A stretch of 26,798 nucleotides of DNA from the IMG/VR virus record IMGVR_UViG_3300038424_000267, positions 1-26,798 of that record. The stretch is one strand, 5' to 3'. Shown one piece after another: positions 3,161 through 20,802 of the stretch. Numbering within the stretch: the first letter of the stretch is position 1; each line of letters starts with the position of its first letter. The notes under the pieces were generated by a model. The model was not told the DNA's origin. It worked only from the letters and a program-made list of their open reading frames with translations, and ran no database searches. Made by a program: the position numbers and the translations under genes. Source of the DNA: a virus.

Positions 3161-3199
3161 GGGGGTGCCACTATCACCCCCGACATCTCTATAGTGGAG
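3161..3199 (+). promoter_or_regulatory. Leader hairpin whose loop is complementary to the HNH ribosome binding site
   Basis: GGGGGTG (3161-3167) and CACCCCC (3175-3181) form a perfect 7-bp stem. Its 7-base loop CCACTAT (3168-3174) is the exact complement of ATAGTGG (3191-3197), which overlaps the GTGGAG Shine-Dalgarno site of the HNH gene. Either a pseudoknot or an alternative hairpin would hide the ribosome binding site, as known for some phage homing endonuclease genes. Confidence 0.55.
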
Positions 3200-3205
3200 A
3201 GAAAA

Positions 3206-3619
3206 ATGAAGATGTGCCCGAAGTGCGGAAAAGATAACGGAAAGAATGACACTCATGGCGGGTCCTATTGTCACGAGTGTAAAAACGAGTACCAAAAGCA
3301 ACAAGGATATAATCGTGTTTGTTATCTGAAAAACAAAGACAGCATCATTGCCCGACTAAAACTTCGAAAACAGGCACGGGTAGAAATAGTTCGCGATGCC
3401 AAAAACAAACCTTGTATGGATTGTGGAATTTCTTACCCATACTGGATAATGCAATTTGACCACGTGCGTGGAATCAAAACCGGGAATCTTGGTCAAATGT
3501 TATGGCGCTTTGGCATAAAGAGAATTTTAGAAGAGATTTCTAAGTGCGAAGTTGTTTGTGCAAACTGTCATGCGAATCGCACGTATATCAGACAGAAAAA
3601 TAACGGGGAAGTGGTCTAG
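3206..3619 (+). CDS. HNH homing endonuclease with N-terminal zinc ribbon
   Basis: 137 residues. I chose the ATG at 3206, preceded by GGAG at 3196-3199; a GTG at 3194 is in frame but would overlap that site. The N-terminus has CPKCGK (C4, C7) and YCHECK (C22, C25), a small zinc ribbon. The nuclease half has PCMDCG (C70, C73), FDHVRG (D85, H86) and VCANCHANRT (C118, C121, H122), the usual phage zinc-bound HNH layout. The gene sits inside the tRNA array behind its own promoter. Its stop codon lies inside the D arm of the following tRNA-Glu, so gene and tRNA overlap by 15 bases. It is likely a free-standing mobile endonuclease targeting related phage genomes. Confidence 0.88.
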   Translation: MKMCPKCGKDNGKNDTHGGSYCHECKNEYQKQQGYNRVCYLKNKDSIIARLKLRKQARVEIVRDAKNKPCMDCGISYPYWIMQFDHVRGIKTGNLGQMLWRFGIKRILEEISKCEVVCANCHANRTYIRQKNNGEVV

Positions 3620-4283: not shown

Positions 4284-4543
4284 AACGGTGAACAAGAAGT
4301 CGCGGCGAAAGCCGAGGAAGTTCCGGCCATCTGGTCAAGGTGCCGTGGAAGCTGCGGGGCGCGAAAGCGCACGGGTAAGAGTTCGGCAAGCCTTGCTCTA
4401 TCCACTTGTCCGAAACGACTCCACACCGATGCAAGGCAAATAGGGCAGAGGCTGACCACCGATAAAGACTGCCGGGTTGCTGCTTAGACGAATGACTTCT
4501 ACTTACGCAAGTGAGAACAGAAGCCGGGCTACGGGCACCGTAA
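4284..4543 (+). ncRNA. rnpB: RNase P RNA (compact, bacterial-type), phage-encoded
   Basis: RNase P RNA is the ribozyme that removes 5' leaders from tRNA precursors. Helix P1 is ACGGTG (4285-4290) with CACCGT (4536-4541). P2 is GAAGTC (4295-4300) with GACTTC (4494-4499). P3 is reduced to CGGC-GAAA-GCCG. The universally conserved segment GAGGAAGTTCCGGCC (4314-4328) matches bacterial GAGGAAAGUCCGGGC. ACTCCACACCGATGCAAGGC with AAATAGGG matches the bacterial ACUCCACCCGGAGCAAGGCCAAAUAGGG. AGACGAATGACTTC (from about 4487) and ACAGAAGCCGGGCTAC match the distal conserved region, including the second strand of P4. P18 is absent: GCTGCTT joins AGACGAATGAC directly. A P19 hairpin (ACTT-ACGC-AAGT) is present. 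At about 260 bases it is far shorter than the roughly 330-400 of most bacteria. In my fold the loop between GGCAG and CTGCC, where the CCA-binding GGU usually lies, has GGC. It is embedded among its likely substrates. Confidence 0.93.
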
Positions 4544-4562
4544 AGGCATCACAATTTTCAAT

Positions 4563-4636
4563 TTCCTTGTCGTATAATGGCAATACGCGTGGCCGATTAC
4601 CGCGCTATGGTGGTTCGAATCCATCCAAGGAAACCA
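4563..4636 (+). tRNA. tRNA-Ile (GAU) with a non-canonical anticodon loop
   Basis: The acceptor TTCCTTG/CAAGGAA is perfect. The D stem is GTAT/ATAC and the T arm GGTGG-TTCGAAT-CCATC. A73 and encoded CCA. The anticodon arm CGTGG-CCGATTA-CCGCG reads GAT, but position 33 is C instead of the nearly universal U and position 37 is U instead of a purine. The identity is therefore likely but not certain. Confidence 0.78.
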
Positions 4637-4669
4637 TTTTTCAAAATCAACGACCAAAGGTCTACGATA

Positions 4670-4963
4670 ATGAATGCAAGAAAACAAAGAGTAGTAGCAC
4701 AATTAGGTATGCCTCCTGGTACGGCTGCGGGAAGACTTCGCAAGATTATTCTTTTTCATTTGCTTTGCAGACTTGAAGAAAATATATGCTTTAAGTGTGC
4801 CAAAGAAATAGTAACTGTTGATGAGTTGAGCATCGAGCACAAAGAGCCATGGGAAGGCCGCTCTGCTGAGTTGTTTTGGGATTTGAATAACATTGCATTT
4901 TCCCATCTGCGGTGCAATACTATACACCGAGTAAAAATTGGAGAGTATAATACTGCAAACTGA
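4670..4963 (+). CDS. HNH endonuclease, small
   Basis: 97 residues. The ATG at 4670 has AAAGG about nine bases upstream; longer upstream frames run back through the tRNA-Ile gene and are rejected. The product has a basic N-terminus, then CFKCAKEI (a CxxC knuckle), LSIEHKEPW with the first His of the HNH motif, WDLNNIAFSH with the central Asn, and LRCN. This is the short HNH fold common in phage free-standing endonucleases. It is inserted between the two Ile tRNAs, in the same style as the HNH gene at 3206, but without an obvious own promoter. Confidence 0.82.
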   Translation: MNARKQRVVAQLGMPPGTAAGRLRKIILFHLLCRLEENICFKCAKEIVTVDELSIEHKEPWEGRSAELFWDLNNIAFSHLRCNTIHRVKIGEYNTAN

Positions 4964-6026: not shown

Positions 6027-6893
6027 TTGCGCAGTCTCTTTTTTATCGCAAGACATGGTCAGACTGTCCTAAATGAATCGGGACGTTATCGCGGATGGTC
6101 TGATGGTCCTGACGCCCAACTCAACGAAGATGGTATTCGATCTGCTCATGAAGAAGGCAAGTTTCTTCAGAAGCTGAAGCAGCCGTTTTCAAAGATCATA
6201 TCATCCCCTCTACAACGCGCAGTCTTGACTGCTGCTATTATCGCGGAGTATCTTGGAGTCGAGTTCATTGAAATTGATGATCGCCTTCTGCCTTTGAATG
6301 TTGGCGATTTCAAAGGGCAATCCAAAGCAGATCACCCTATTCAGCCATTTCTTGACAACAAGAACAAAAGATTTCCAAATGGCGAAACGATCAATGAGTT
6401 TGAATATCGTCAGCACGAGTTTGCCGAAGACCTTCTAAAGATAATTGAAAAAGAAAAGAGCACGGAAGACCCCGAAGTTTTGGTTGTTGCCCACGTTTCA
6501 AATGTGATGTACTGGTGGAACCTGCAGACCGGCGCGAACAGCGATGAGTATTTGGGCGAGACGACGGATATTATTAGCCCCGGTGGCATTGCACTGATCG
6601 CGGAGTATACCACGATTCCGATTTTCAAGTCTAATCCTGAAGCCGAATCCGATCACTCCATACAAATTGACATATCTGCGGTTCAAGGGGAGACCGGAAC
6701 TGGATACGAGCCCGCTGCGAACAAGGGGCCATTCTCTTGTGCTAACTGTGAATTTTTTCGATCTGTGGATAATTCCTGCGGACAGGATGACATGTTGAAG
6801 AAGTCAAAGCAGCCGCGCACTTCCGATGGCCGAATTAAGGTTGATCCGAACGCCTGCTGTGAGTATGTTGCCCGAGTCGGCAATGGCAAATAA
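6027..6893 (+). CDS. Histidine phosphatase superfamily protein with C-terminal Cys-rich module
   Basis: 288 residues from a TTG start at 6027, with AAAGGA upstream at 6014-6019. The N-terminus has the RHG motif of the phosphoglycerate mutase/histidine phosphatase fold (ARHGQTVLNESG, catalytic H10), the conserved SPLQRA (R64) and the second catalytic His in VVAHVSN (H156). The position that normally carries the acid/base Glu (RLxE...GxxxG) reads RLLPLNVGDFKG, so that Glu seems to be replaced by Pro. After about residue 230 comes CANCEFF (C238, C241), C251 and DPNACCEY (C277, C278), a metal- or cluster-binding pattern found at the ends of some phage proteins. The last codons overlap the next gene by 11 bases. 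Substrate unknown. Confidence 0.8.
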   Translation: MRSLFFIARHGQTVLNESGRYRGWSDGPDAQLNEDGIRSAHEEGKFLQKLKQPFSKIISSPLQRAVLTAAIIAEYLGVEFIEIDDRLLPLNVGDFKGQSKADHPIQPFLDNKNKRFPNGETINEFEYRQHEFAEDLLKIIEKEKSTEDPEVLVVAHVSNVMYWWNLQTGANSDEYLGETTDIISPGGIALIAEYTTIPIFKSNPEAESDHSIQIDISAVQGETGTGYEPAANKGPFSCANCEFFRSVDNSCGQDDMLKKSKQPRTSDGRIKVDPNACCEYVARVGNGK

Positions 6894-7311
6894 GTGGACG
6901 AAGACTCATTGTAAACATGGGCACGAATTTACTCCTGAGAATACTTGCTGGGATAAACATCGTCGTCGTTCTTGTAGAGTTTGTGGCCGATTAAAATATG
7001 CAAGATTGATGGGCGGTCCTGAAAAGAAACGGTATCATTCAGATCGTTATAGAATGTGGAAATATGGTATAAGCGCAGAAGTGTTTGTTGCGATGCTCGC
7101 GGCTCAAAATAATTGTTGTGGAGTATGTTTGAAACCTTTCTCGGAAGATAAAGGGATGGAGGCGGTTGTAGATCACTCCCATGTTACCGAAATGAATCGA
7201 GGATTAGTTCATAGAAAATGCAACATGGCTCTTGGTCTTCTACAGGATGATCCTGTTACTTGCAAATTGGCCGCAGCATATTTGGAAAAATATCTCGGGG
7301 AGAAGAAATGA
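6883..7311 (+). CDS. Endonuclease VII-like homing endonuclease
   Basis: 142 residues from the ATG at 6883, which overlaps the end of the preceding gene. The pattern is complete for the phage endonuclease VII group: N-terminal knuckle CKHGHEFTPENT with RRSCRVCG, a YG-x-MLAAQNN-CCGVC segment, then VVDHSHVTEMNRGLVHRKCNMALGLL and a C-terminal helix AAAYLEKYL. Upstream in-frame starts at 6826 and 6865 would lie deep inside the phosphatase gene and lack better ribosome binding sites. It is likely a free-standing homing endonuclease; resolvase function is possible but less likely with three copies in the window. Confidence 0.88.
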   Translation: MANKWTKTHCKHGHEFTPENTCWDKHRRRSCRVCGRLKYARLMGGPEKKRYHSDRYRMWKYGISAEVFVAMLAAQNNCCGVCLKPFSEDKGMEAVVDHSHVTEMNRGLVHRKCNMALGLLQDDPVTCKLAAAYLEKYLGEKK

Positions 7312-11168: not shown

Positions 11169-11603
11169 ATGACAAAGGAAGAGAAGGCCATTTATAATAA
11201 AAAGTGGCAATCTGCTCATCCTGTGTATGCTTCTAAAAAGTCTAAAGAGTGGAAGGCGGCGCATGTCGAAGAGAAGAAAGTTTACGACAAGCGGTATCAT
11301 AAGGACCGCCTTATGAAAGACCCACTCTATCAAAGACGATATGCGTATAAGAAATTATATGGCATAAGTTTGGAAGAAAAAGAGCGCATTTTAGCATCTC
11401 AAAACAGGTGTTGTGCTATTTGCGGCATTCCAGATGCCAAAAAATGGTGTGTTGACCACGATCATTTTGCAGAAGTTACAACAGGCGAGATTGTTATTCG
11501 TGGAATTCTTTGTTCTACGTGTAATTTCTTGTTGGGTCATGCAAAAGATAATGAGAGTATTTTATTGGCCGCAGTAGAATATCTTAGAAAGAACGGTAAA
11601 TAA
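11169..11603 (+). CDS. Endonuclease VII-like homing endonuclease
   Basis: 144 residues from the ATG at 11169. The N-terminal half is basic with repeated W/Y-K segments (NKKWQSAHP, KEWKAAH, DKRYHKD), typical of the DNA-binding part of phage endonucleases. The catalytic half has YGISLEEKERILASQNRCCAICG, CVDHDHFAEVTTGE, RGILCSTCNFLLGHAKD and a final AVEYLRK helix, i.e. the endonuclease VII/HNH treble clef. It interrupts a run of small virion genes and has only a weak ribosome binding site, so it looks like a recent mobile insertion. Third such gene in the window. Confidence 0.86.
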   Translation: MTKEEKAIYNKKWQSAHPVYASKKSKEWKAAHVEEKKVYDKRYHKDRLMKDPLYQRRYAYKKLYGISLEEKERILASQNRCCAICGIPDAKKWCVDHDHFAEVTTGEIVIRGILCSTCNFLLGHAKDNESILLAAVEYLRKNGK

Positions 11604-12380: not shown

Positions 12381-14171
12381 GTGGGCATCTCAAATCTCGG
12401 TGACTTGAACTTCCGATTGACACTGCCCGATGTGCAGAAGTTGTCTAAGGAAGAACAAGACAACGTGAAAATTCGAATCCAGACTGATTTGCGTTTTCTG
12501 GTTAACTGCGTTTTGCGTCCTGCAAACTCCAAGAAGTTTCCAACACTTCTGGAAAAGGTTCATGGAAAAATTATTGACTCGTTCCTTCAGCCTGATCCTC
12601 ACAAAGATTCTTCTGAATGGGATGAACGGGATGAGTTTGTAGTATTGGCTTCCCGAGGCATGCTCAAATCTACAATTGGAGCGGCCTTTCTAACTCAAGT
12701 TATTTTGTGTTCTCCTGACATTCGTATTCTCATCATGTCAGGAAAAATTGATAAAGCTAAGAGCATCCTTGCAATGGCTCGAAAGCCATTCTTTTCCAAT
12801 CAAGTTATTCGGCATTTGTTTCCTGAATGGGCGATTGAAGAATCAGATATCAAACTTGAAGAGTTCACAACTCCAAAGCGAAACCCTGAACTAGACCTTC
12901 GAGACCCAACCATCTCCCTTGCCAGCTTTGAGTCTGTAAAAGCTGGAGGCCACTATGAACTTGTGTTTTTGGACGACGCGACAAACGAAATCAATTCGTC
13001 CAATTTAGAGAATTGCGAAAAAACCCACGGCACATACGATGATACTGACGAGCTAGTTGAGCCGGGCGGATATCGGATGTTTTTGGGCACCAAATGGCAT
13101 GAAGAAGATTTACCCGCTTACATCTGTCGAAAAGGCGCGGAAGACAAAGAGAAATCTGGACGTGAGACAGTTTCTTATTTTGTTTTGCCCGCATGGACGC
13201 TCCGTAAAGATGGAACGCCAAAAGAAATAGAAGAACGGATAAAGAGAGAGAAGAACGGCCAACTTACTCCTGATGATGTCGATCTTACTTGGCCTGAGAA
13301 GCTGAATGCAAACTTCTTATTCAAACGCTATCGCCGGAATCGTTCTGATTTCTACAAGCAATATTTGCTTGATGCGTCTTTGGACGAGACGCCAAAGTCA
13401 TTCACAGAAGCAATTCTGAAGAGACAGATCACATCTCCAAACGATCTTCTGCAAATTCCCATGCATGACCGTTCAGTTGTTGTTCACTGGGATTTAGCAT
13501 CTGCATTTACTGGCCGACGCAAGAAAAGTGAATCAGATTATTCCTGTGGCATTATCGCGGTATTTCAGAACAGCACGATGAGAATGTGGGTTGTGCAGGT
13601 TGTTCTGGCACACTACAACAATGGTACTGATGTTTCAAACGCCATCGTTCAGTTGTATCGGACAGCGGAATATTTCGGGCCCATTGTCGGCCATAGCATC
13701 GAAGACGCCATGGGCGTCCGTTGGCTGGAAGATCAGATCAATGAAGCTGTACGAAGAACTGCCAAGCCAAACGATAAACCGTTCAAGTCTATCACATGGG
13801 AATTACCGAACAACGAATTGAATGCAAAGAATGTCCGTATCGCGGTATTGGCATCGGCCATGAAAGACGGACATGTCTTTATCAACTCCAATGTCGGGTT
13901 CATTGATGATGTCCGCTCTCAATTTGAAAAATGGACGCTTGATGCCAAGCGCCGTAAAGACGATGCTCCTGATTGCATCGCGCAGGCTTGGCAATACTAT
14001 CGCCCGCTGATCTTTCCTAAGACCATTGAGAGTTTGAAACCTAGCGGGCCCATTCTCACATGGGAGCCTGAACTTCCGCCCGAAGCACCGGACTCGCATG
14101 CAGGAGAAGGTGAAAGCACGGATATTGATGCGGTGAATTCAACTAATGTTGCAAGTCTATATCGAGGATAA
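12381..14171 (+). CDS. terL: Terminase large subunit (DNA packaging ATPase/nuclease)
   Basis: 596 residues from a GTG at 12381, two bases after the previous stop. The enzyme cuts concatemeric phage DNA and pumps it into the prohead through the portal. The ATPase domain has a Walker A variant LASRGMLKST (residues 89-98) and Walker B ELVFLDD (193-199), followed by FLGTKWHEEDL as a likely coupling motif near 234-244. The RNase H-like nuclease domain has the acidic residues VVHWDLASAF (D371), SIEDAMG (E441, D442) and KDDAPDCIAQAW (about 527-537). Length and motif order fit a complete large terminase. The portal gene follows nine bases later. Confidence 0.92.
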   Translation: MGISNLGDLNFRLTLPDVQKLSKEEQDNVKIRIQTDLRFLVNCVLRPANSKKFPTLLEKVHGKIIDSFLQPDPHKDSSEWDERDEFVVLASRGMLKSTIGAAFLTQVILCSPDIRILIMSGKIDKAKSILAMARKPFFSNQVIRHLFPEWAIEESDIKLEEFTTPKRNPELDLRDPTISLASFESVKAGGHYELVFLDDATNEINSSNLENCEKTHGTYDDTDELVEPGGYRMFLGTKWHEEDLPAYICRKGAEDKEKSGRETVSYFVLPAWTLRKDGTPKEIEERIKREKNGQLTPDDVDLTWPEKLNANFLFKRYRRNRSDFYKQYLLDASLDETPKSFTEAILKRQITSPNDLLQIPMHDRSVVVHWDLASAFTGRRKKSESDYSCGIIAVFQNSTMRMWVVQVVLAHYNNGTDVSNAIVQLYRTAEYFGPIVGHSIEDAMGVRWLEDQINEAVRRTAKPNDKPFKSITWELPNNELNAKNVRIAVLASAMKDGHVFINSNVGFIDDVRSQFEKWTLDAKRRKDDAPDCIAQAWQYYRPLIFPKTIESLKPSGPILTWEPELPPEAPDSHAGEGESTDIDAVNSTNVASLYRG

Positions 14172-14180
14172 GGAAACGGA

Positions 14181-16292
14181 ATGCAGTTACCCCAGCCAAA
14201 TACTACCGCCGCCCCGCTAAATCAAAGAATAGATGATTTCAGTTTGGATAGTGGTGCAGTAAAAACTGATGAATCTGCACTTTCCTTAGTCATTCAGGAT
14301 ACCCAGCGAGCCGAGAAGTTCGTGATGGCGCGTTTATGGATGAGCGAATGGCGTGTTGCCAAGAGCTTGTACGAAGCTCCGGTTCGTCAGACTTATTGGC
14401 GCGATACTTTGGTTCCGCGCTCAAGTAATTCTTTCCCTCTAATCGCTCAGCACGTTCGGGCAATTCTGGATCAGGCTATGCCCGCTATCTTTCCAGAGAT
14501 GACTCCGTTTGCCATTCAGCCGACTGAAGGCACACCTCGACAAGTATCGCGTGGTTGGGAATCGGTTCTGTCATATCAATTGCGTCAGGCGAATGTGAAA
14601 GCTCAAATGCGTCTAATAGTAAAAGACGCTGAAATTTTTGGCACGGGATTGGGTAAGTTTGGATGGGAAACCTTTGATCGTAAGCGCACGGTCTACAAGC
14701 GCGCGGCTATGCCGAAGGAAATTCCGTCTTCCGTTCCGGGCGGCAAGTCTACCTTTCTGCATACTGCAGAATCCGATGAATTGGAAGAGTACGATGTAAC
14801 CGACCGCGTTAGTCAACCATTCTTTAAGCGCATCGAAATCAACCATCTTTTGGTTAGTCCGGGTCTTCGTGAACCTGATATTCGTGCGGCTGACTTTGTT
14901 GTGTACCGTGACTATTTGACGATCCGCGATTTGAACAAACTTCGGGATTTTGAAGGTTACGATATTCCCGACGAGAAGACTTTGAAGGCTTTGGCAGCAC
15001 CTCCTGCCGAACAAGCACCGAGTTCAGGTTTGGAGAATGAAGGCACGGCGTACCCGACACAGGGGCATCGCCCGCTTCCGCGCTATCTTGATGAGTCTGA
15101 AGACCCGCTGGAACACAAGCTGGAAGTTCTTGAGCACTGGACAAAGGACCACGTCATCGTGGTTCTGCAGCGCAAAAAAGTAATTCGTAATGAAGGCAAC
15201 CCGCTAGGCGTCATCCCGTTTGTTTCTTGTTATTGGGACGATCTACCGGGCACATTCTACGCCTTTGGTATTCCACGTCGTATTGGTGGAATCCAGACAC
15301 ACATTCAAGGTTTGCGTAACCTGCGTTTGGATGACGTTCACATGAACCTTCAAAACATGTGGATGGCTCGCAAAGGTTCCAATATTGCCGCTCAACCCAT
15401 CAAGCAATACCCGGGCGCGGTATTCAAAGTCGATGACATGGACAGTTTGAAAGCCATTGAGAAGCAACCCGTTTTGTCTGAAGCATATCAGGAAGAAGAA
15501 GTTCTTATGGCTGATGCCGAGAAGACAACGGGCGCGAATGAACTGTTGATTCAAGGTGCTATGCCGGGTGGTGTACGCAGTACAGGTATGCGCTCTGGTA
15601 CAGGTGCGGGAGCCGTGGCAGGAGCATCAAGCGCCCGCGTACAAAGTTTTGTGGATATAGTGTGTGACCAGTGCTTGCTTCCGCTTCTCTATTCTTTCCT
15701 GAAAATGGACAGGATGTGGCTTGATCCTGCCGTTATACGCAAGATCGTGGGAAAGACGTTGTGGACATCCATGGAACAGAATCATGACGGCGATCTTACG
15801 CTCGACATGTGCAACAATGACGATATTGAATTTACTTTGTTGGCCGGTTCAAACATCGCAGCTAAACAGAAGATGGGCCAGTCTTTGCCATTGCTTGGTC
15901 AGATGCTGGAAGCCCCGGCTGTTCAGCAAGGATTGGCATCTGCTCAAATGAAGGTCAACTGGGTTGAGTATAGCCGTCGTTGGGAAGAAGTCTCAGGTTG
16001 GAAGACACCAGAAGACATCATTATCCCGATGACTCAGCAAGATCAGCAACGTGCTGCGCAGATGAATCCGAAGATGTTGGATGCCCAAGCAACTCGTGCG
16101 CGCTTGGCTCAGATGCACGCCCAAAATAAGGACCTGTCTGCTCAAGAGCATCAGCAAAAACTTACTGAGATTGATGCCAAGGGTCAGGCAGATACCGGAC
16201 AAATTATCGCCACGAAAGCTGTGGAGCGAGCCTCGGAACGCGAAGAAACTCCGGGCATTGTATCAGGATTCGAAGGGCTCGGAGGAACGTAA
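14181..16292 (+). CDS. Portal protein
   Basis: 703 residues; ATG preceded by AAGGAAACGG. Portals form the dodecameric ring through which DNA enters and leaves the head. The size, the position directly after the terminase, and segments such as DAEIFGTGLGKFGWETFDRK, ISPFFKRIEI-type beta strands, VIPFVSCYWDDLPGTFYAFGIPRRIGGIQTHIQGLRN and the long C-terminal helical, Gln/Ala-rich barrel (DQQRAAQMNPKMLDAQATRARLAQMHAQ) fit the large portals found with N4-type capsid proteins. The assignment rests on context and overall pattern rather than one short motif. Its stop overlaps the next start (TAATG). Confidence 0.85.
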   Translation: MQLPQPNTTAAPLNQRIDDFSLDSGAVKTDESALSLVIQDTQRAEKFVMARLWMSEWRVAKSLYEAPVRQTYWRDTLVPRSSNSFPLIAQHVRAILDQAMPAIFPEMTPFAIQPTEGTPRQVSRGWESVLSYQLRQANVKAQMRLIVKDAEIFGTGLGKFGWETFDRKRTVYKRAAMPKEIPSSVPGGKSTFLHTAESDELEEYDVTDRVSQPFFKRIEINHLLVSPGLREPDIRAADFVVYRDYLTIRDLNKLRDFEGYDIPDEKTLKALAAPPAEQAPSSGLENEGTAYPTQGHRPLPRYLDESEDPLEHKLEVLEHWTKDHVIVVLQRKKVIRNEGNPLGVIPFVSCYWDDLPGTFYAFGIPRRIGGIQTHIQGLRNLRLDDVHMNLQNMWMARKGSNIAAQPIKQYPGAVFKVDDMDSLKAIEKQPVLSEAYQEEEVLMADAEKTTGANELLIQGAMPGGVRSTGMRSGTGAGAVAGASSARVQSFVDIVCDQCLLPLLYSFLKMDRMWLDPAVIRKIVGKTLWTSMEQNHDGDLTLDMCNNDDIEFTLLAGSNIAAKQKMGQSLPLLGQMLEAPAVQQGLASAQMKVNWVEYSRRWEEVSGWKTPEDIIIPMTQQDQQRAAQMNPKMLDAQATRARLAQMHAQNKDLSAQEHQQKLTEIDAKGQADTGQIIATKAVERASEREETPGIVSGFEGLGGT

Positions 16293-16663
16293 TGGCTCAA
16301 GTTATGACTACAGACGGATTCGTTATAGATGTGTCCGACGATGATCCGTTGCTGCGGCGAGACATTCCCCGCGTGGAATATGAAACTTCTCAAGAAAATT
16401 ACGACACCGCGCAAACCATATACGACAAAGCGCGGAGGATAGGGCATCTACGAAATAATCCAGATCATTTGCTGTTTATCAGCGATCTCAAGGAGAAAAT
16501 TCAACAGAAGGCCGATATTTTGCTTGCCTGCACGGATAAGGATAAAAAAGATAAAGCGTGGCAAGATCATCGAGACTTACGGATAGTTTTAGACTATTGC
16601 AATAACACAATAAACGAAGCCGCCACCGTACCAAGACCGCTTTTGCACAAAGTATCACAGTAG
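16292..16663 (+). CDS. Hypothetical protein between portal and scaffold, 123 residues
   Basis: The ATG overlaps the portal stop and follows GGAGGAACG. The protein is charged and mostly helical by appearance (YETSQENYDTAQTIYDKARRIGHLR..., then ADILLACTDKDKKDKAWQDHRDLRIVLDYCNNTINEA). No cysteine cluster or membrane segment. The position suggests a head-assembly accessory; no family is recognised. The gap after it contains a TTGGCC/GGCCAA hairpin with a direct repeat of GATTGGCC. Confidence 0.68.
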   Translation: MAQVMTTDGFVIDVSDDDPLLRRDIPRVEYETSQENYDTAQTIYDKARRIGHLRNNPDHLLFISDLKEKIQQKADILLACTDKDKKDKAWQDHRDLRIVLDYCNNTINEAATVPRPLLHKVSQ

Positions 16664-16713
16664 TAAAAATAGACCTGATTGGCCGGGATTGGCCAAAATA
16701 AAGGAGAATCACA

Positions 16714-18027
16714 ATGGGAACAGGAATACCAGTAGAGAAGGTTTTGAAGTTCACGGACAAAGGCATTTCCGTTGAGGAAGCCCGCAAGAGAATGTTGGAA
16801 GCAGGCGAAGCACCGAAAGGGATTCTGAAAGAAGTACGCAAGAACGCGGCAGTGAATCCAACACCAGCACAACCAGTTGTTCAGCCAACTGTATCGGCTC
16901 CGGTACGACAACCTGTCCCGAAGAGAGAAGTTGCCACATCCGCTAAGCTGACTGTTGTTACCGAAGATGGAACGGACGGAGAAAGTACTATCATCTCCGC
17001 CGAGACGCCGCAAAAGCTAGATGCTGAAATCAGAACGATTCACAGTCAAGCACAAATCAAGCACCAGAAGATTCGCGTTGAGTTTATTGCCGATGAGCCT
17101 ATTGAACCAGTTGTTCAACCAGAACCAACAGCGGTGGTTGTAGAAGAACCCGTTACTGCTCCTGTGGTGGCTCCCGTAGTTGTGTCACCGATTCCTGTAG
17201 AACAACCCGAGCGAATTGAAAACGCCAAATTCATTCTGGAAATCAAACAGGAAGACGGTGAATGGATTGGCGAGATCACGTACAAGAACGGTGCAGGTAT
17301 TGAACGCTTTACTGCTCCGTCACGTAATGCTCTGAATTTGAAGTTGCTCGAAGGCAAGGCCAATGCGACCCTTCGTGTTCGTGAAGCTATACGACGCGAG
17401 AAATATGGCACCGAATTGGATAAGGTCTATACCTTGCCCGACTATCTGACGCAAGAAGCGTATGATGCTCTTCCAAAAGAAGCGCAGATGGGAATTCTTG
17501 ATACGATTGCCACGAATGAAGGCAACGTGTTCAAAGAGTTGCACCCCGAGTATTGGCCGAATGAGGACAATTCTGTCAAGATTCAAAAGTTTTTGAACAA
17601 GCGTGGTTTACCTTTCACGCTAAGAAACATCGAATTTGCTTTTGAAGAACTGATGGAAAGCGAAGAGCTTGATATCAGACCAACTCCAAAACCAACAGTT
17701 GTAGCACCGTCCGTACCTAGCCCTGCACCGCGCACAGAGGATTCTGTGGCGGCGGTAGTGCCTGTAACCCCTGTTGCACCCGCACCAGTGGTTCCGGCTA
17801 CCCCTGCACCGCAGGTACGCAAGAGGGGGACGACTGGCTTGCAGCCCGGTCATTCTAGCGCGGCTAACACCGAACTAGAAACGGCCACAGAGGAAGCTAA
17901 CAAGCCGAGCGAACCCTCAGTCGCGGAACTTCGTAAATCTTCTCCTATCGGAAAACCGCCTAGCGACGACCTCCGACGAGCGTATCAAAATACGCTTGCC
18001 GAACGTCGAAAGGCTCGACAGTTCTAA
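16714..18027 (+). CDS. Candidate scaffold / head-assembly protein, Pro/Val-rich
   Basis: 437 residues; ATG preceded by AAAGGAG. It lies between portal and capsid, the usual scaffold place. Layout: a helical start (VEKVLKFTDKGISVEEARKRMLEAGEAPKG), a Pro/Val-rich linker with short beta segments, a compact central domain (about 165-325, FILEIKQEDGEWIGEITYKN...PDYLTQEAYDALPKEAQMGILDTI), a second Pro/Ala/Val linker, and a basic helical end (SDDLRRAYQNTLAERRKARQF), as many scaffolds have for binding capsid protein. The central domain and long disordered linkers are unusual for a plain scaffold. The assignment is from context only. Confidence 0.55.
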   Translation: MGTGIPVEKVLKFTDKGISVEEARKRMLEAGEAPKGILKEVRKNAAVNPTPAQPVVQPTVSAPVRQPVPKREVATSAKLTVVTEDGTDGESTIISAETPQKLDAEIRTIHSQAQIKHQKIRVEFIADEPIEPVVQPEPTAVVVEEPVTAPVVAPVVVSPIPVEQPERIENAKFILEIKQEDGEWIGEITYKNGAGIERFTAPSRNALNLKLLEGKANATLRVREAIRREKYGTELDKVYTLPDYLTQEAYDALPKEAQMGILDTIATNEGNVFKELHPEYWPNEDNSVKIQKFLNKRGLPFTLRNIEFAFEELMESEELDIRPTPKPTVVAPSVPSPAPRTEDSVAAVVPVTPVAPAPVVPATPAPQVRKRGTTGLQPGHSSAANTELETATEEANKPSEPSVAELRKSSPIGKPPSDDLRRAYQNTLAERRKARQF

Positions 18028-18155
18028 TCGGATTGATTGGGACAATAGTGGGAAGTAAACATTTGTTCGGCATACCATAGCAGAGGTTTCTGCCGCTAGT
18101 CTCTAATATGAATTGGAGTCCTAGTGTTCTAATGTAAAAAATTGAGGTAACAAAT
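18028..18155 (+). promoter_or_regulatory. Leader of the capsid gene
   Basis: A 128-base gap with a hairpin GCAGA-GGTT-TCTGC nested in GGCA/TGCC (about 18069-18094) and a modest ribosome binding site (TGAGG) before the capsid ATG. A TCTAAT near 18127 could be a -10 box, but no -35 box matches. Likely a structured 5' untranslated region for the highly expressed capsid. Confidence 0.4.
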
Positions 18156-18761
18156 ATGCCTAGTAATTCACAGGCTTCATTTGTTATCGGCTCAACTTTG
18201 CCAAGCACCCAAGCGGTCTTTTATGATCGTTTGGCAGTACGTGCTTTGTTCGCGCATCTTGGGTTCCAAGGGCTGACCGCAGAACGTCAGATTCCGAAGA
18301 ACGCAGGTCGCACGACACAAATTTACACGTATAACTTGGCTCCGTTTACTGCGAACGTTTCAGCAAACGCGATTGATATTGGTGGTGGACCCATCAATAC
18401 CCCGCCCCCGACTGCCGTAGAAGGCACCGTGGGCACACCAATCGTGCCAACTGAAGCGAGCATCCAAGCAGTGCTAGGTCAGTACGTTGATTACGTCAAC
18501 GTTTCTGACTTTGCTCTTGCTGTGGATATTGGAAAGCCTCTCGAACAACTCAGCGAAATGCTTGGGTATCGAGGCGCTCTCGTGGTTGATACGTTGATTC
18601 AGCAAGGCTTTGATGCTGCTGTTTCTACGGACCCAACTGCAAGCGTTCAGCTTTCTGATGGTAGCTACGTGACCCGTGCGGTTCTTAACACGGCTGTGGC
18701 TACAATTCGCGGAAAGAACGGACGACCTTTTGCCGGTGGAAGAATGCGTGGAATCATGCAT
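18156..18761 (+). CDS. Major capsid protein, exon 1 (residues 1-202)
   Basis: The ATG has TGAGG upstream. The exon ends with the complete codon CAT (His). The last seven bases CATGCAT pair with GTGCATG (18770-18776) in intron 1, ending in the required U-G pair. The unspliced frame runs on for seven more residues to a TAA at 18783-18785; that is an artefact of the intron. Confidence 0.88.
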
Positions 18762-20802
18762 CAACAAGGGTGCATGCAAAATTAAGCTATATCCGTTAAT
18801 ATCTTACATTTAGCTTGACAAAGTATCAGATATGTGATACAATGTTTAGTGAAATAAGACAAGACGGAGGAAAGACTTCGATGGATCACAACGCATGGCC
18901 GTATGTGGCCGGAATTTTAGATGGTGAAGGAAGCATCTACGTTGTCCGTGGTCAACGCTCAGACGGATGTTCGGGTGAGCGATTTGAATTGGGAATCAAA
19001 ATTAGCAATACAGATTTCCGTCTAATCAAATGGCTACTGCACAACTTTGGTGGACGATTTCAGACTGATGTTAGCAACCGCAAAGGACGAGGTTTTTCTT
19101 CTTTGCGGGCCAAACTTTTATATCAGTGGAAATTGTCTGGCAGCAAAAACAAAGAGAAGTTTTTGTTAGGTGTTATCCCGTATATGATTATCAAGCAGGA
19201 ACAAGCTAAACTCGCTCTTGAGTGGGTTAGATTGGGAACTGGTTGGAATCAAGAAAAGCGCGCGGTGCTGGCAGAAAAAATATCAGCACTGAACCACGGC
19301 CATCTAATCGAAGAATCCCCAACGACTAATACGCTTAACACTCCATTTTATGGAATGAAGATAGAGTCTGAACTGCATGGTGACATGCAGAGTGATCCTG
19401 CGGTGACGCAGAAATCCTAAACAAAAATTACCTTATATACTTAACGATGTTGCTAACGACCTGACTCACAACGGCGTTCTCGACACCGAGAAGTACACCC
19501 GTGAAGGACAGAAGTGGATTGAAGCTGGCCTCGCAGAAGATAATGAAATCATCCCGGTAGCGGGTATCGATTTCGTTATGAGCACCAACGTTCCGTTGGT
19601 TGCCAACTTGCCCGCATCTGGTAAGTCTTCTTGGGAAACCTACATTACTGCTGACGAGACGATGTTCGCTATCGCTCTTGGTGGTTTTGAAGACGTTCCT
19701 TAACCATTGCCGTTTCATGAAGTTACGGCACAGGGTACGTAAAATCTCGCTATATCGGGGAAACACCTGATACCCCTCAGGCCAATCCCGAGGCAACCTG
19801 CGCAAGCAGAGAGTCCGTAGAGACTACACGCGAGAAACATCTTGACAAACTACAGAATTTGTGGTATAATGTTTGGGTGTTATGATATAGTCCGTTCTGC
19901 ATGGTAACATGCAGAGTTAGGGGTGAGACATGGGTTTTGCAACAGTAGAACAAGAGCGGCAATACGCTCGTCAGTATTATGCCCGCAATCGGGCCAAGAT
20001 ACTGGAGCATGCTCGGGAGAAGTATGCCGAGAATGCAGAACTACGTAAAGCGAAATCAGATTATCGAAAAGAATGGTGGAAGGGCGTTTCTTCCGACTGG
20101 GACCGTTACAAGATTTATATGGTTCGCCGGGCTCGTCACCGTGCCAAGATGCTTGGTCTTCCTTTCGATCTCACACCTGATGACATCACTATTCCAGAGG
20201 TATGTCCGCTTTTGGGAATTCGTTTACAAGTGGCAACAGGTCGTCACAAAGACGATTCACCTGCTCTTGACCGAAGAATTCCTGAAAAAGGGTATATCAA
20301 AGAAAATGTGATGGTCATCTCGCAACGCGCCAACGTTTTGAAACGGGATGCTTCTTTAGAAGAGCTAGAGAAGCTAGTTGACGGATTGCGAAGAATAACA
20401 AATTAAGGACGAATCCAACTTCAAGGCAAACATCTATGAATTCGCACCGAGTGCATTTGACCCGGGCGGAGAAATAGGTGGAGCGGTTAGTTACAACTAA
20501 GTAAAATTGGTTCATCGTGGCGAAATCCGCGAATGAGAATCTTCTCTAATTGACTCGAACCCTGAAATGGCAACGAGGCGGAAGCGAAAGCACCGTGAGA
20601 GACTAAGCGAGAAGACACCCTTCGGGGTGATGCAATAGTCCGAGCACACAGGAATCCAACTGTGTGAGATTGTCAGAAATGCACAATCCCCCAAGTTATT
20701 TGGGGTAACAATCCTGTTAAGTTCGTCGTAACTCCCCGTCCTGCCGCCGCTGGCACGTTCCTGCCCTTCCGACGTATTTTGTCGGAAACAGCAACAGCCT
20801 AA
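18156..20802 (+). CDS. Major capsid protein gene, four exons split by three group I introns
   Basis: Join of 18156-18761, 19431-19700, 20408-20498 and 20717-20802 gives one frame of 350 residues plus stop. The product begins MPSNSQASFVIGSTLPSTQAVFYDRLAVRALFAHL and continues QYVDYVNVSDFALAVDI, GGRMRGIMH|PYILNDVANDLTHNG, GFEDVP|DESNFKANIYEFAPSAFDPGGEIGGAVSYN|FKFVVTPRPAAAGTFLPFRRI. Order and motifs resemble the N4-gp56/HK97-fold major capsid family: the Y-D-R start, the QY-DYV-SD segment, and the GEIG...YNFKF...P.FRRI end. Exon junctions were set by intron P1 pairings and by restoring the frame. Without splicing, translation stops 22 bases into intron 1, losing about 40% of the protein. Intron positions all fall in the second half of the protein. 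Confidence 0.88.
18815..18843 (+). promoter_or_regulatory. Sigma-70-type promoter inside intron 1
   Basis: TTGACA (18815-18820), 17 bases, TACAAT (18838-18843) with TGTGA before the -10. It lies 38 bases upstream of the LAGLIDADG start, so the endonuclease can be transcribed apart from the capsid gene. Related to the promoters at 1209, 3079 and 19842. Confidence 0.75.
18881..19420 (+). CDS. LAGLIDADG homing endonuclease in intron 1
   Basis: 179 residues. The ATG at 18881 follows GGAGG at about 18866; an in-frame start at 18815 is rejected because it lies on the promoter. One LAGLIDADG motif is present near the N-terminus (YVAGILDGEGSIYVV), so it probably acts as a homodimer. Further family features are the basic beta-strand segment (FELGIKISNTDFRLIKWLLHNFGGRF) and a helical second half (IKQEQAKLALEWVRLG). 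Such enzymes cut intronless alleles and spread the intron. The last ~35 codons overlap ribozyme elements P7, P8 and P9, so this part of the protein is constrained by RNA structure and is poorly protein-like (HGDMQSDPAVTQKS). Confidence 0.88.
   Translation: MDHNAWPYVAGILDGEGSIYVVRGQRSDGCSGERFELGIKISNTDFRLIKWLLHNFGGRFQTDVSNRKGRGFSSLRAKLLYQWKLSGSKNKEKFLLGVIPYMIIKQEQAKLALEWVRLGTGWNQEKRAVLAEKISALNHGHLIEESPTTNTLNTPFYGMKIESELHGDMQSDPAVTQKS
19373..19390 (+). repeat. P9-type hairpin shared between introns 1 and 2, copy 1
   Basis: CTGCATG-GTGA-CATGCAG. The same 18-base hairpin with GTAA in the loop occurs at 19897-19914 in intron 2, also directly after P7. This suggests that the two introns share ancestry or exchanged this element. 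Confidence 0.7.
19431..19700 (+). CDS. Major capsid protein, exon 2 (residues 203-292)
   Basis: Ninety codons, PYILNDVANDLTHNGVLD to ALGGFEDVP, with no own start. The composition is protein-like and matches the region after the conserved IMHP segment. It ends ACGTTCCT, which pairs with GGGTACGT (19733-19740) in intron 2, ending in a U-G pair. Confidence 0.85.
19842..19870 (+). promoter_or_regulatory. Consensus sigma-70 promoter inside P8 of intron 2
   Basis: TTGACA (19842-19847), 17 bases, TATAAT (19865-19870), with TTTGTGG before the -10. This is the best promoter in the window. It lies between the two strands of P7, i.e. within the P8 part of the ribozyme, and about 60 bases before the endonuclease ATG. 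Confidence 0.85.
19897..19914 (+). repeat. P9-type hairpin shared between introns 1 and 2, copy 2
   Basis: CTGCATG-GTAA-CATGCAG, a perfect hairpin with a GNRA-type loop directly after P7 of intron 2. It differs by one loop base from the copy at 19373-19390. Confidence 0.7.
19930..20406 (+). CDS. HNH-type homing endonuclease in intron 2
   Basis: 158 residues. The ATG at 19930 follows AGGGGTGAG. The N-terminal half is highly basic and helical (YARQYYARNRAKILEHAREKYAENAELRKAKSDYRKEWW), then RYKIYMVRRARHRAKMLGLPFDLTPDD. The C-terminal half has VCPLLGIRL, DDSPALDRRIPEKGYIKENVMVISQRANVLKRDASLEELEKL. The CP-x-G-x-L / SPxLDR / KGY-x-x-N-V pattern is widespread in phage HNH-like endonucleases. The TAA ends one base before the 3' splice site, so the gene fills the intron from P9 to its end. 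Confidence 0.85.
   Translation: MGFATVEQERQYARQYYARNRAKILEHAREKYAENAELRKAKSDYRKEWWKGVSSDWDRYKIYMVRRARHRAKMLGLPFDLTPDDITIPEVCPLLGIRLQVATGRHKDDSPALDRRIPEKGYIKENVMVISQRANVLKRDASLEELEKLVDGLRRITN
20408..20498 (+). CDS. Major capsid protein, exon 3 (residues 293-322 plus one base)
   Basis: Thirty codons plus one T: DESNFKANIYEFAPSAFDPGGEIGGAVSYN. The TAA directly after AAC is not the end of the gene: it is formed by the last exon base and the first two bases of intron 3. The GGEIGGAVSYN segment is the typical penultimate motif of this capsid family. Confidence 0.83.
20499..20716 (+). ncRNA. Group I intron 3 of the capsid gene, without an ORF
   Basis: 218 bases, about minimal size. P1 is exon AACT with GGTT (20509-20512), ending in U-G. 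Core: CGAACCCTGAAATGGC and GCAACGAGGCGG region, then GAGACTAAGC (P7 5' strand, about 20599-20607), a P8 hairpin CACCC-TTCG-GGGTG (20616-20629), AATAGTCCG (P7 3' strand, 20634-20642) and a P9 hairpin CACACAG/CTGTGTG. The last base is G (20716). Joining exons 3 and 4 makes a Phe codon (T+TT) and restores the frame (SYN-F-KFVVTP). Confidence 0.88.
20717..20802 (+). CDS. Major capsid protein, exon 4 (C-terminal 28 residues)
   Basis: Completes a Phe codon and continues KFVVTPRPAAAGTFLPFRRILSETATA to TAA at 20800-20802. A YNFKF ... FRRI ending is what this capsid family shows at its C-terminus, so the short exon restores the natural end of the protein. Confidence 0.82.

Follow-up and report, generated by a model that had tools for sequence, protein, structure and literature searches.

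Three inserts with group I ribozyme cores divide the major capsid gene of a soil phage and are very likely removed as introns, one of which ends in adenosine

The window, the whole stretch of DNA analysed here, is a 26,798-base viral record (IMG/VR) from a soil phage. The order of genes at 12381-20802 is terminase, portal, capsid. The capsid gene (18156-20802, plus strand like all features of the gene described below) consists of four exons and three inserts of exactly 669, 707 and 218 nt. Exon 1 (18156-18761) carries codons 1-202 and ends in ATG CAT, and was placed by alignment with uninterrupted homologues. Exon 2 (19431-19700, codons 203-292), exon 3 (20408-20498, codons 293-322 plus one base) and exon 4 (20717-20802, which includes the stop codon) are supported by both homologue alignment and selection. 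The joined exons total 1053 nt, which is 350 codons and a stop; the unspliced frame meets a stop after 209 codons. The joined product is colinear from end to end, with 85-88% amino acid identity, with the products of uninterrupted genes in three relatives (contigs L003-L008). The joining restores the host coding sequence, as expected of group I introns, and the earlier claim of a 350-residue capsid protein after removal of 669, 707 and 218 bases held. Three further contigs (L015-L017) share the arrangement with a single substitution (A/C at 19024), and it is therefore not an assembly error.

The product is very likely an N4/HK97-like major capsid protein of a tailed phage. It matches the PHROG major head protein family phrog_1357 (1.9e-11), and a relative of it matches the NCBIfam N4-gp56 capsid family TIGR04387 at 6e-10, below the curated cut-off. 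The fold is predicted by a model and for a homologue: the AlphaFold model of the L006 protein, made with 30 diverse sequences (pLDDT 69.7; 9 near-identical sequences gave 25.9), matches the phage N4 capsid 9e99 at 1.3e-11, with an HK97 capsid fold and N4 as the closest structure. The protein thus meets the description of the N4-gp56/HK97-fold group, and the label 'major capsid gene' given by the initial annotation held on all three lines of evidence. Comparison of six full-length relatives gave pS values of 0.50-1.02 and pN values of 0-0.13 across every exon (0.63-0.78 and 0.07-0.13, respectively, in exon 1). Purifying selection acts on all four exons, also on those that follow in-frame stops, and the parts behind the stops are therefore still translated. 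No relative of the capsid protein was found in the bacterial genome contigs searched. Among annotated phages only Tunturi_3 of Tunturiibacter came up as a relative, at 30%, and an Acidobacteriota host is thus merely a guess.

All three inserts contain the group I core (P3-P4-P5-P7-P8 with the P3/P7 pseudoknot), and we sorted their ribozymes into types 1 to 3, a numbering of our own. An Infernal search with the Rfam model RF00028, the check proposed in the initial annotation, placed intron 2 above the gathering score of 50 (64.1 bits at 19705-19914) and intron 1 below it (29.5 bits). Intron 3 has no Rfam match, either within the whole window or when searched alone. The assignment of introns 1 and 3 draws on comparison with relatives. 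Both the type-1 and the type-3 structures contain the P3/P7 pseudoknot, which is the defining feature of group I introns, and covariation in P3, P4 and P7 is far above that in slid and shuffled controls.

Intron 1 (18762-19430, 669 nt) is a type-1 ribozyme. In an alignment with four relatives that occupy other sites, 98.1% of pairs in the helices P3, P4, P5, P7, P9 and P9.1 are standard ones, and 17 of 31 pairs show changes on both sides; pairing drops to 31-40% in slid controls. The end of exon 1, CATGCAT (18755-18761), forms P1 with the guide GTGCATG (18770-18776) through seven of seven pairs, with U-G at the splice site. The adjacent AAGG (18766-18769) forms a 4-bp P10 with the start of exon 2, CCTT (19431-19434), and thereby sets the position of the 3' splice site. 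The ribozyme's 3' half (19322-19430) comprises the 5' strand of P7, the 3' strand of P3, P8, the 3' strand of P7 and the P9 hairpins, and its tail ends ...AAAAATTA.

The last base of intron 1 is adenosine. A terminal G is nearly universal among group I introns; introns 2 and 3 have it and intron 1 does not. Since an exception is already on record in Coxiella (see below), the group I membership of intron 1 rests on its core. We place the 3' site at the terminal A because of the P1 and P10 pairing, the reading frame and four similar relatives. Of all positions of the 3' site within ±20 nt, the inferred one gives the longest P10, and the 16-nt tail aligns position by position with type-1 introns that end in G. 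The nearest Gs would create a stop codon or a frame shift. A terminal A is also found in the type-1 introns of L011, L018 (site B) and L200, each with a 5-bp P10, and in an intron of the distant capsid gene in L208, which lies at the same His-Pro junction as intron 1 of the window. In at least seven further type-1 introns the last base is G. We saw no change in the G-binding pair of P7 linked to the terminal A; it is G-C in all members, whether they end in A or in G. The terminal A is unusual, and it is possible that it lowers splicing efficiency.

Intron 2 (19701-20407, 707 nt) is a type-2 ribozyme with a terminal G, and its P1 contains seven of eight pairs, with one T-T mismatch. One related intron, in L014, was assigned to type 2 solely through its P7-P9 region. 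Intron 3 (20499-20716, 218 nt) is a type-3 ribozyme with a terminal G and no ORF. A covariance model built from 12 introns, with the window sequence excluded, finds its core at 20538-20688 with 169.5 bits (E=2.1e-38). The P3-P9 core of intron 3 and five relatives shows 98.4% pairs (35-42% in slid controls) and two-sided changes at 24 of 41, and the fold z-score of intron 3 is -3.37. A comparable small type-3 intron without an ORF, of 208 nt, is present in L012.

The P1 of intron 3 has just 4 bp and is at chance level when considered alone (17245 of 20000 shuffles reach it). It becomes meaningful through the family as a whole: when P1 pairing with own exons was compared with pairing with swapped exons for 12 introns, none of 100000 permutations matched the observed value. 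In the close clade 13 introns could be placed exactly, and after their removal the junctions are gap-free in the proteins. The inferred 3' sites coincide exactly with the P10 maxima. Taken with the gene structure, these results make it very likely that the capsid gene is split by three group I introns that are removed from the RNA; splicing itself is inferred, without RNA or protein data.

Introns 1 and 2 each contain an endonuclease ORF. The ORF in P6 of intron 1 (18881-19420) encodes 179 aa from its ATG, and its 3' end overlaps P7, P8 and P9. The protein belongs to the LAGLIDADG family, with a single motif (AGILDGEGS); it is related to I-MsoI (5.5e-7; I-MsoI/I-CreI relatives) and matches phrog_5046 at 1.8e-19. 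A related ORF at site C of L018 matches PF00961 at 2.3e-4, just under the cut-off. The ORF in intron 2 (19930-20406, 158 aa) matches PHROG endonuclease families (phrog_3322, 1.5e-33), whose names are the only basis for calling it HNH; it has no match in Pfam, NCBIfam or the PDB. Just upstream of the first ORF lies a promoter-like sequence, TTGACA-17-TACAAT (18815-18843), which matches 11 of 12 positions, and the cassette is expected 0.00 times by chance. The P8 region of intron 2 contains TTGACA-17-TATAAT (19842-19870), which matches 12 of 12 and ranks first among 18 sites in 16.8 kb. The two sigma-70-like sites are among the three best in the 16.8 kb, and similar sites exist in some relatives' introns. 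By inference only, an own promoter could perhaps allow the endonuclease to be made from a short RNA, sparing the ribozyme of the capsid messenger from translation. Type-3 ribozymes are found with a LAGLIDADG protein, with an HNH-like protein or with none, and type 2 with either endonuclease. Ribozyme types and endonuclease types are shuffled in these combinations, as expected of mobile modules.

Several other features were also observed. The endonuclease of a type-1 intron in L013 (3497-4405, 303 aa) resembles two fused LAGLIDADG units; relatives encode single-motif proteins. In L012, a 42-nt exon of 14 codons (6799-6840) lies between type-3 introns of 907 and 208 nt, and the 907-nt intron has an endonuclease ORF within P6. 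The window also contains small, apparently free-standing endonuclease-like ORFs of Endonuclease_7, HNH and zinc-ribbon types at 2-361, 3194-3619, 4577-4963, 6826-7311 and 11169-11603, among tRNA and tail genes. Amid the 26 tRNA genes, positions 4284-4546 of the plus strand resemble RNase P RNA (RF00010, 74.7 bits, E 3.5e-21) over the full model length and below the gathering score of 100. This sequence was present in two of 15 records tested, the window and the near-identical G012.

The introns of the window belong to a larger pattern. Eight of 11 close lineages (80-92% amino acid identity) have introns, 13 in total at 11 sites, and three have none. Distant capsid relatives (about 30-37%) are also intron-bearing, and the mapped positions of all retrieved loci group into about 23 site clusters, resolved to within a few residues. 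The capsid gene at 2823-7115 of L208 contains five introns in about 4.3 kb, four of them mapped and the fifth recognized as a type-3 core after residue 334. We also searched viral contigs with ribozyme motifs that have no exon content and obtained 113 occurrences, 82 after removal of near-duplicates. Capsid genes of several families harbour or adjoin 61 of the 82, of which 43 are in or beside the window's family and 18 in or beside others (PHROGs 267/283, 14242, 3922, 4523/371 and distant 1357). The rest are in portal genes (7), a thymidylate synthase gene (1) and phrog_8234 (1), or are unassigned or unresolved (12). Type-3 introns were seen in the portal genes of L147, L150, L112, L138 and related loci, and in the thymidylate synthase gene of L146. 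The search motifs were derived from capsid introns, and shared descent may inflate the capsid enrichment, though several families are involved. Some motif-found sites have one-sided exons, so these introns may adjoin rather than interrupt the capsid gene. With these caveats, the capsid gene is an intron hotspot and a favoured target of group I introns.

The initial annotation, made from sequence alone, is confirmed by these results with a correction at the terminal base of intron 1. Its central claim of three group I introns held, as did the statements that introns 2 and 3 end in G and restore the frame, wording that passed over the A of intron 1, and that two introns encode endonucleases and one does not. 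The P1 pairings with U-G exist as it described, the one in intron 3 having support only family-wide. The LAGLIDADG label is confirmed, and the HNH label is weaker than claimed, lacking domain-level support. The idea of a dense intron invasion also held, and the invasion is larger, as the gene is interrupted at many further sites in relatives. Its interpretation is thus supported with three refinements, namely the terminal A, the weaker HNH assignment and the scale of the invasion.

The sequences show the gene structure, the reading frame, selection, ribozyme covariation, intron-free alleles and the distribution of the introns. On this basis we propose the following mechanism, in which cellular splicing, endonuclease activity, promoter use and mobility are all inferred. 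The internal guide of each ribozyme would pair with the end of the upstream exon to form P1. Guanosine would then be used to cut the 5' site, followed by exon joining, and in intron 1 this second step would take place at the terminal adenosine held by P10. The endonucleases of introns 1 and 2, each behind its own sigma-70-like promoter, probably spread the introns into intron-free copies, and intron 3 is a ribozyme without an endonuclease. The introns belong to ribozyme lineages that are found again and again in the capsid genes of related and unrelated phages.

Other explanations have to be weighed. The gene could be degraded, the endonuclease cassettes residing in it without splicing while the virion relies on a second capsid gene or on a truncated product of 209 aa. 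The early stop in the unspliced frame is compatible with this, and in a 26.8-kb fragment a second capsid copy elsewhere cannot be excluded. However, the low pN relative to pS in exons 2-4 led us to reject a degraded gene. Ribozyme cores conserved with compensatory changes, near-identical copies in three other contigs, and the perfect frame left by every insert in the eight close lineages once removed also argue against it, and this explanation is all but excluded.

Spliced introns remain our preferred reading, and two further objections concern single introns. Given how widespread terminal G is, the 3' site of intron 1 could be a G elsewhere, or the intron could be a splice-defective natural mutant. 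This is very unlikely: the nearest Gs give a stop codon or a frame shift, the tail aligns with terminal-G relatives, P10 is longest at the A, and a terminal A recurs in four further type-1 introns, of which three have a 5-bp P10. Intron 3, being short, without an ORF and with a 4-bp P1, could be a non-autonomous remnant that needs other introns or a protein. Its full P3-P9 core with covariation, the high score from the independent model and the similar intron in L012 speak against this, and we consider it unlikely. A bolder reading is that capsid-specialised ribozyme lineages jump among sites and among capsid families that share no detectable sequence similarity, exchange endonucleases, and include a terminal-A sub-lineage that still splices well enough for the virion's most abundant protein. 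Taken jointly, these propositions have, in our judgement, only a slight edge over their negation.

These observations have practical consequences. Across a broad group of uncultured phages, capsid genes can be annotated correctly only once introns that Rfam largely misses have been removed. With eight of 11 lineages in the close clade affected, marker-gene and virion-protein surveys will therefore report capsid proteins that are cut short. That several ribozyme lineages concentrate in capsid genes poses a testable question, namely why some genes become homes for mobile introns; candidate causes are conservation of the sites, an abundant late mRNA that is exposed to reverse splicing, and tolerance of delayed expression. 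The natural series of terminal-A and terminal-G introns in one family could be used to examine directly how strict the requirement for G in the second splicing step is.

Single capsid introns, three introns in one phage gene and intron-rich phages are already known. In the open-access literature searched (subscription papers lay outside), we found no description of a concentration of introns in capsid genes across unrelated families, or of recurrent terminal-A phage introns. In the major capsid gene of mycobacteriophage LittleE (Cluster J), a group I-type intron carries an endonuclease gene; its splicing was shown by RT-PCR and N-terminal sequencing, and intron-free relatives exist, as they do here (PMC3706429). 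Unlike the window, LittleE has one intron at one site; this intron ends in G, and its endonuclease is encoded on the opposite strand. Phage genes with two or three group I introns include the DNA polymerase and terminase genes of Bastillevirinae and a Twort gene with three, cited in the same study (PMC11878797). No capsid gene is involved there, whereas one capsid family here has up to five introns in a relative of the window and about 23 site clusters overall. The Jug gut phages contain many group I introns per genome, with metatranscriptome-supported splicing for 37 of 76 tested; however, the interrupted genes named there are terminase, nrdD and DNA polymerase, and we saw no report of a capsid concentration (PMC12363816). 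The 23S rRNA intron of Coxiella burnetii, whose terminal base is an A, has been described as self-splicing without the canonical omega-G (Raghavan et al. 2007, cited in PMC5423948). It resembles intron 1 of the window as a group I intron without a terminal G, but its host gene is a bacterial rRNA gene, whereas at least five terminal-A introns occur here in phage capsid genes, within a family that otherwise ends in G.
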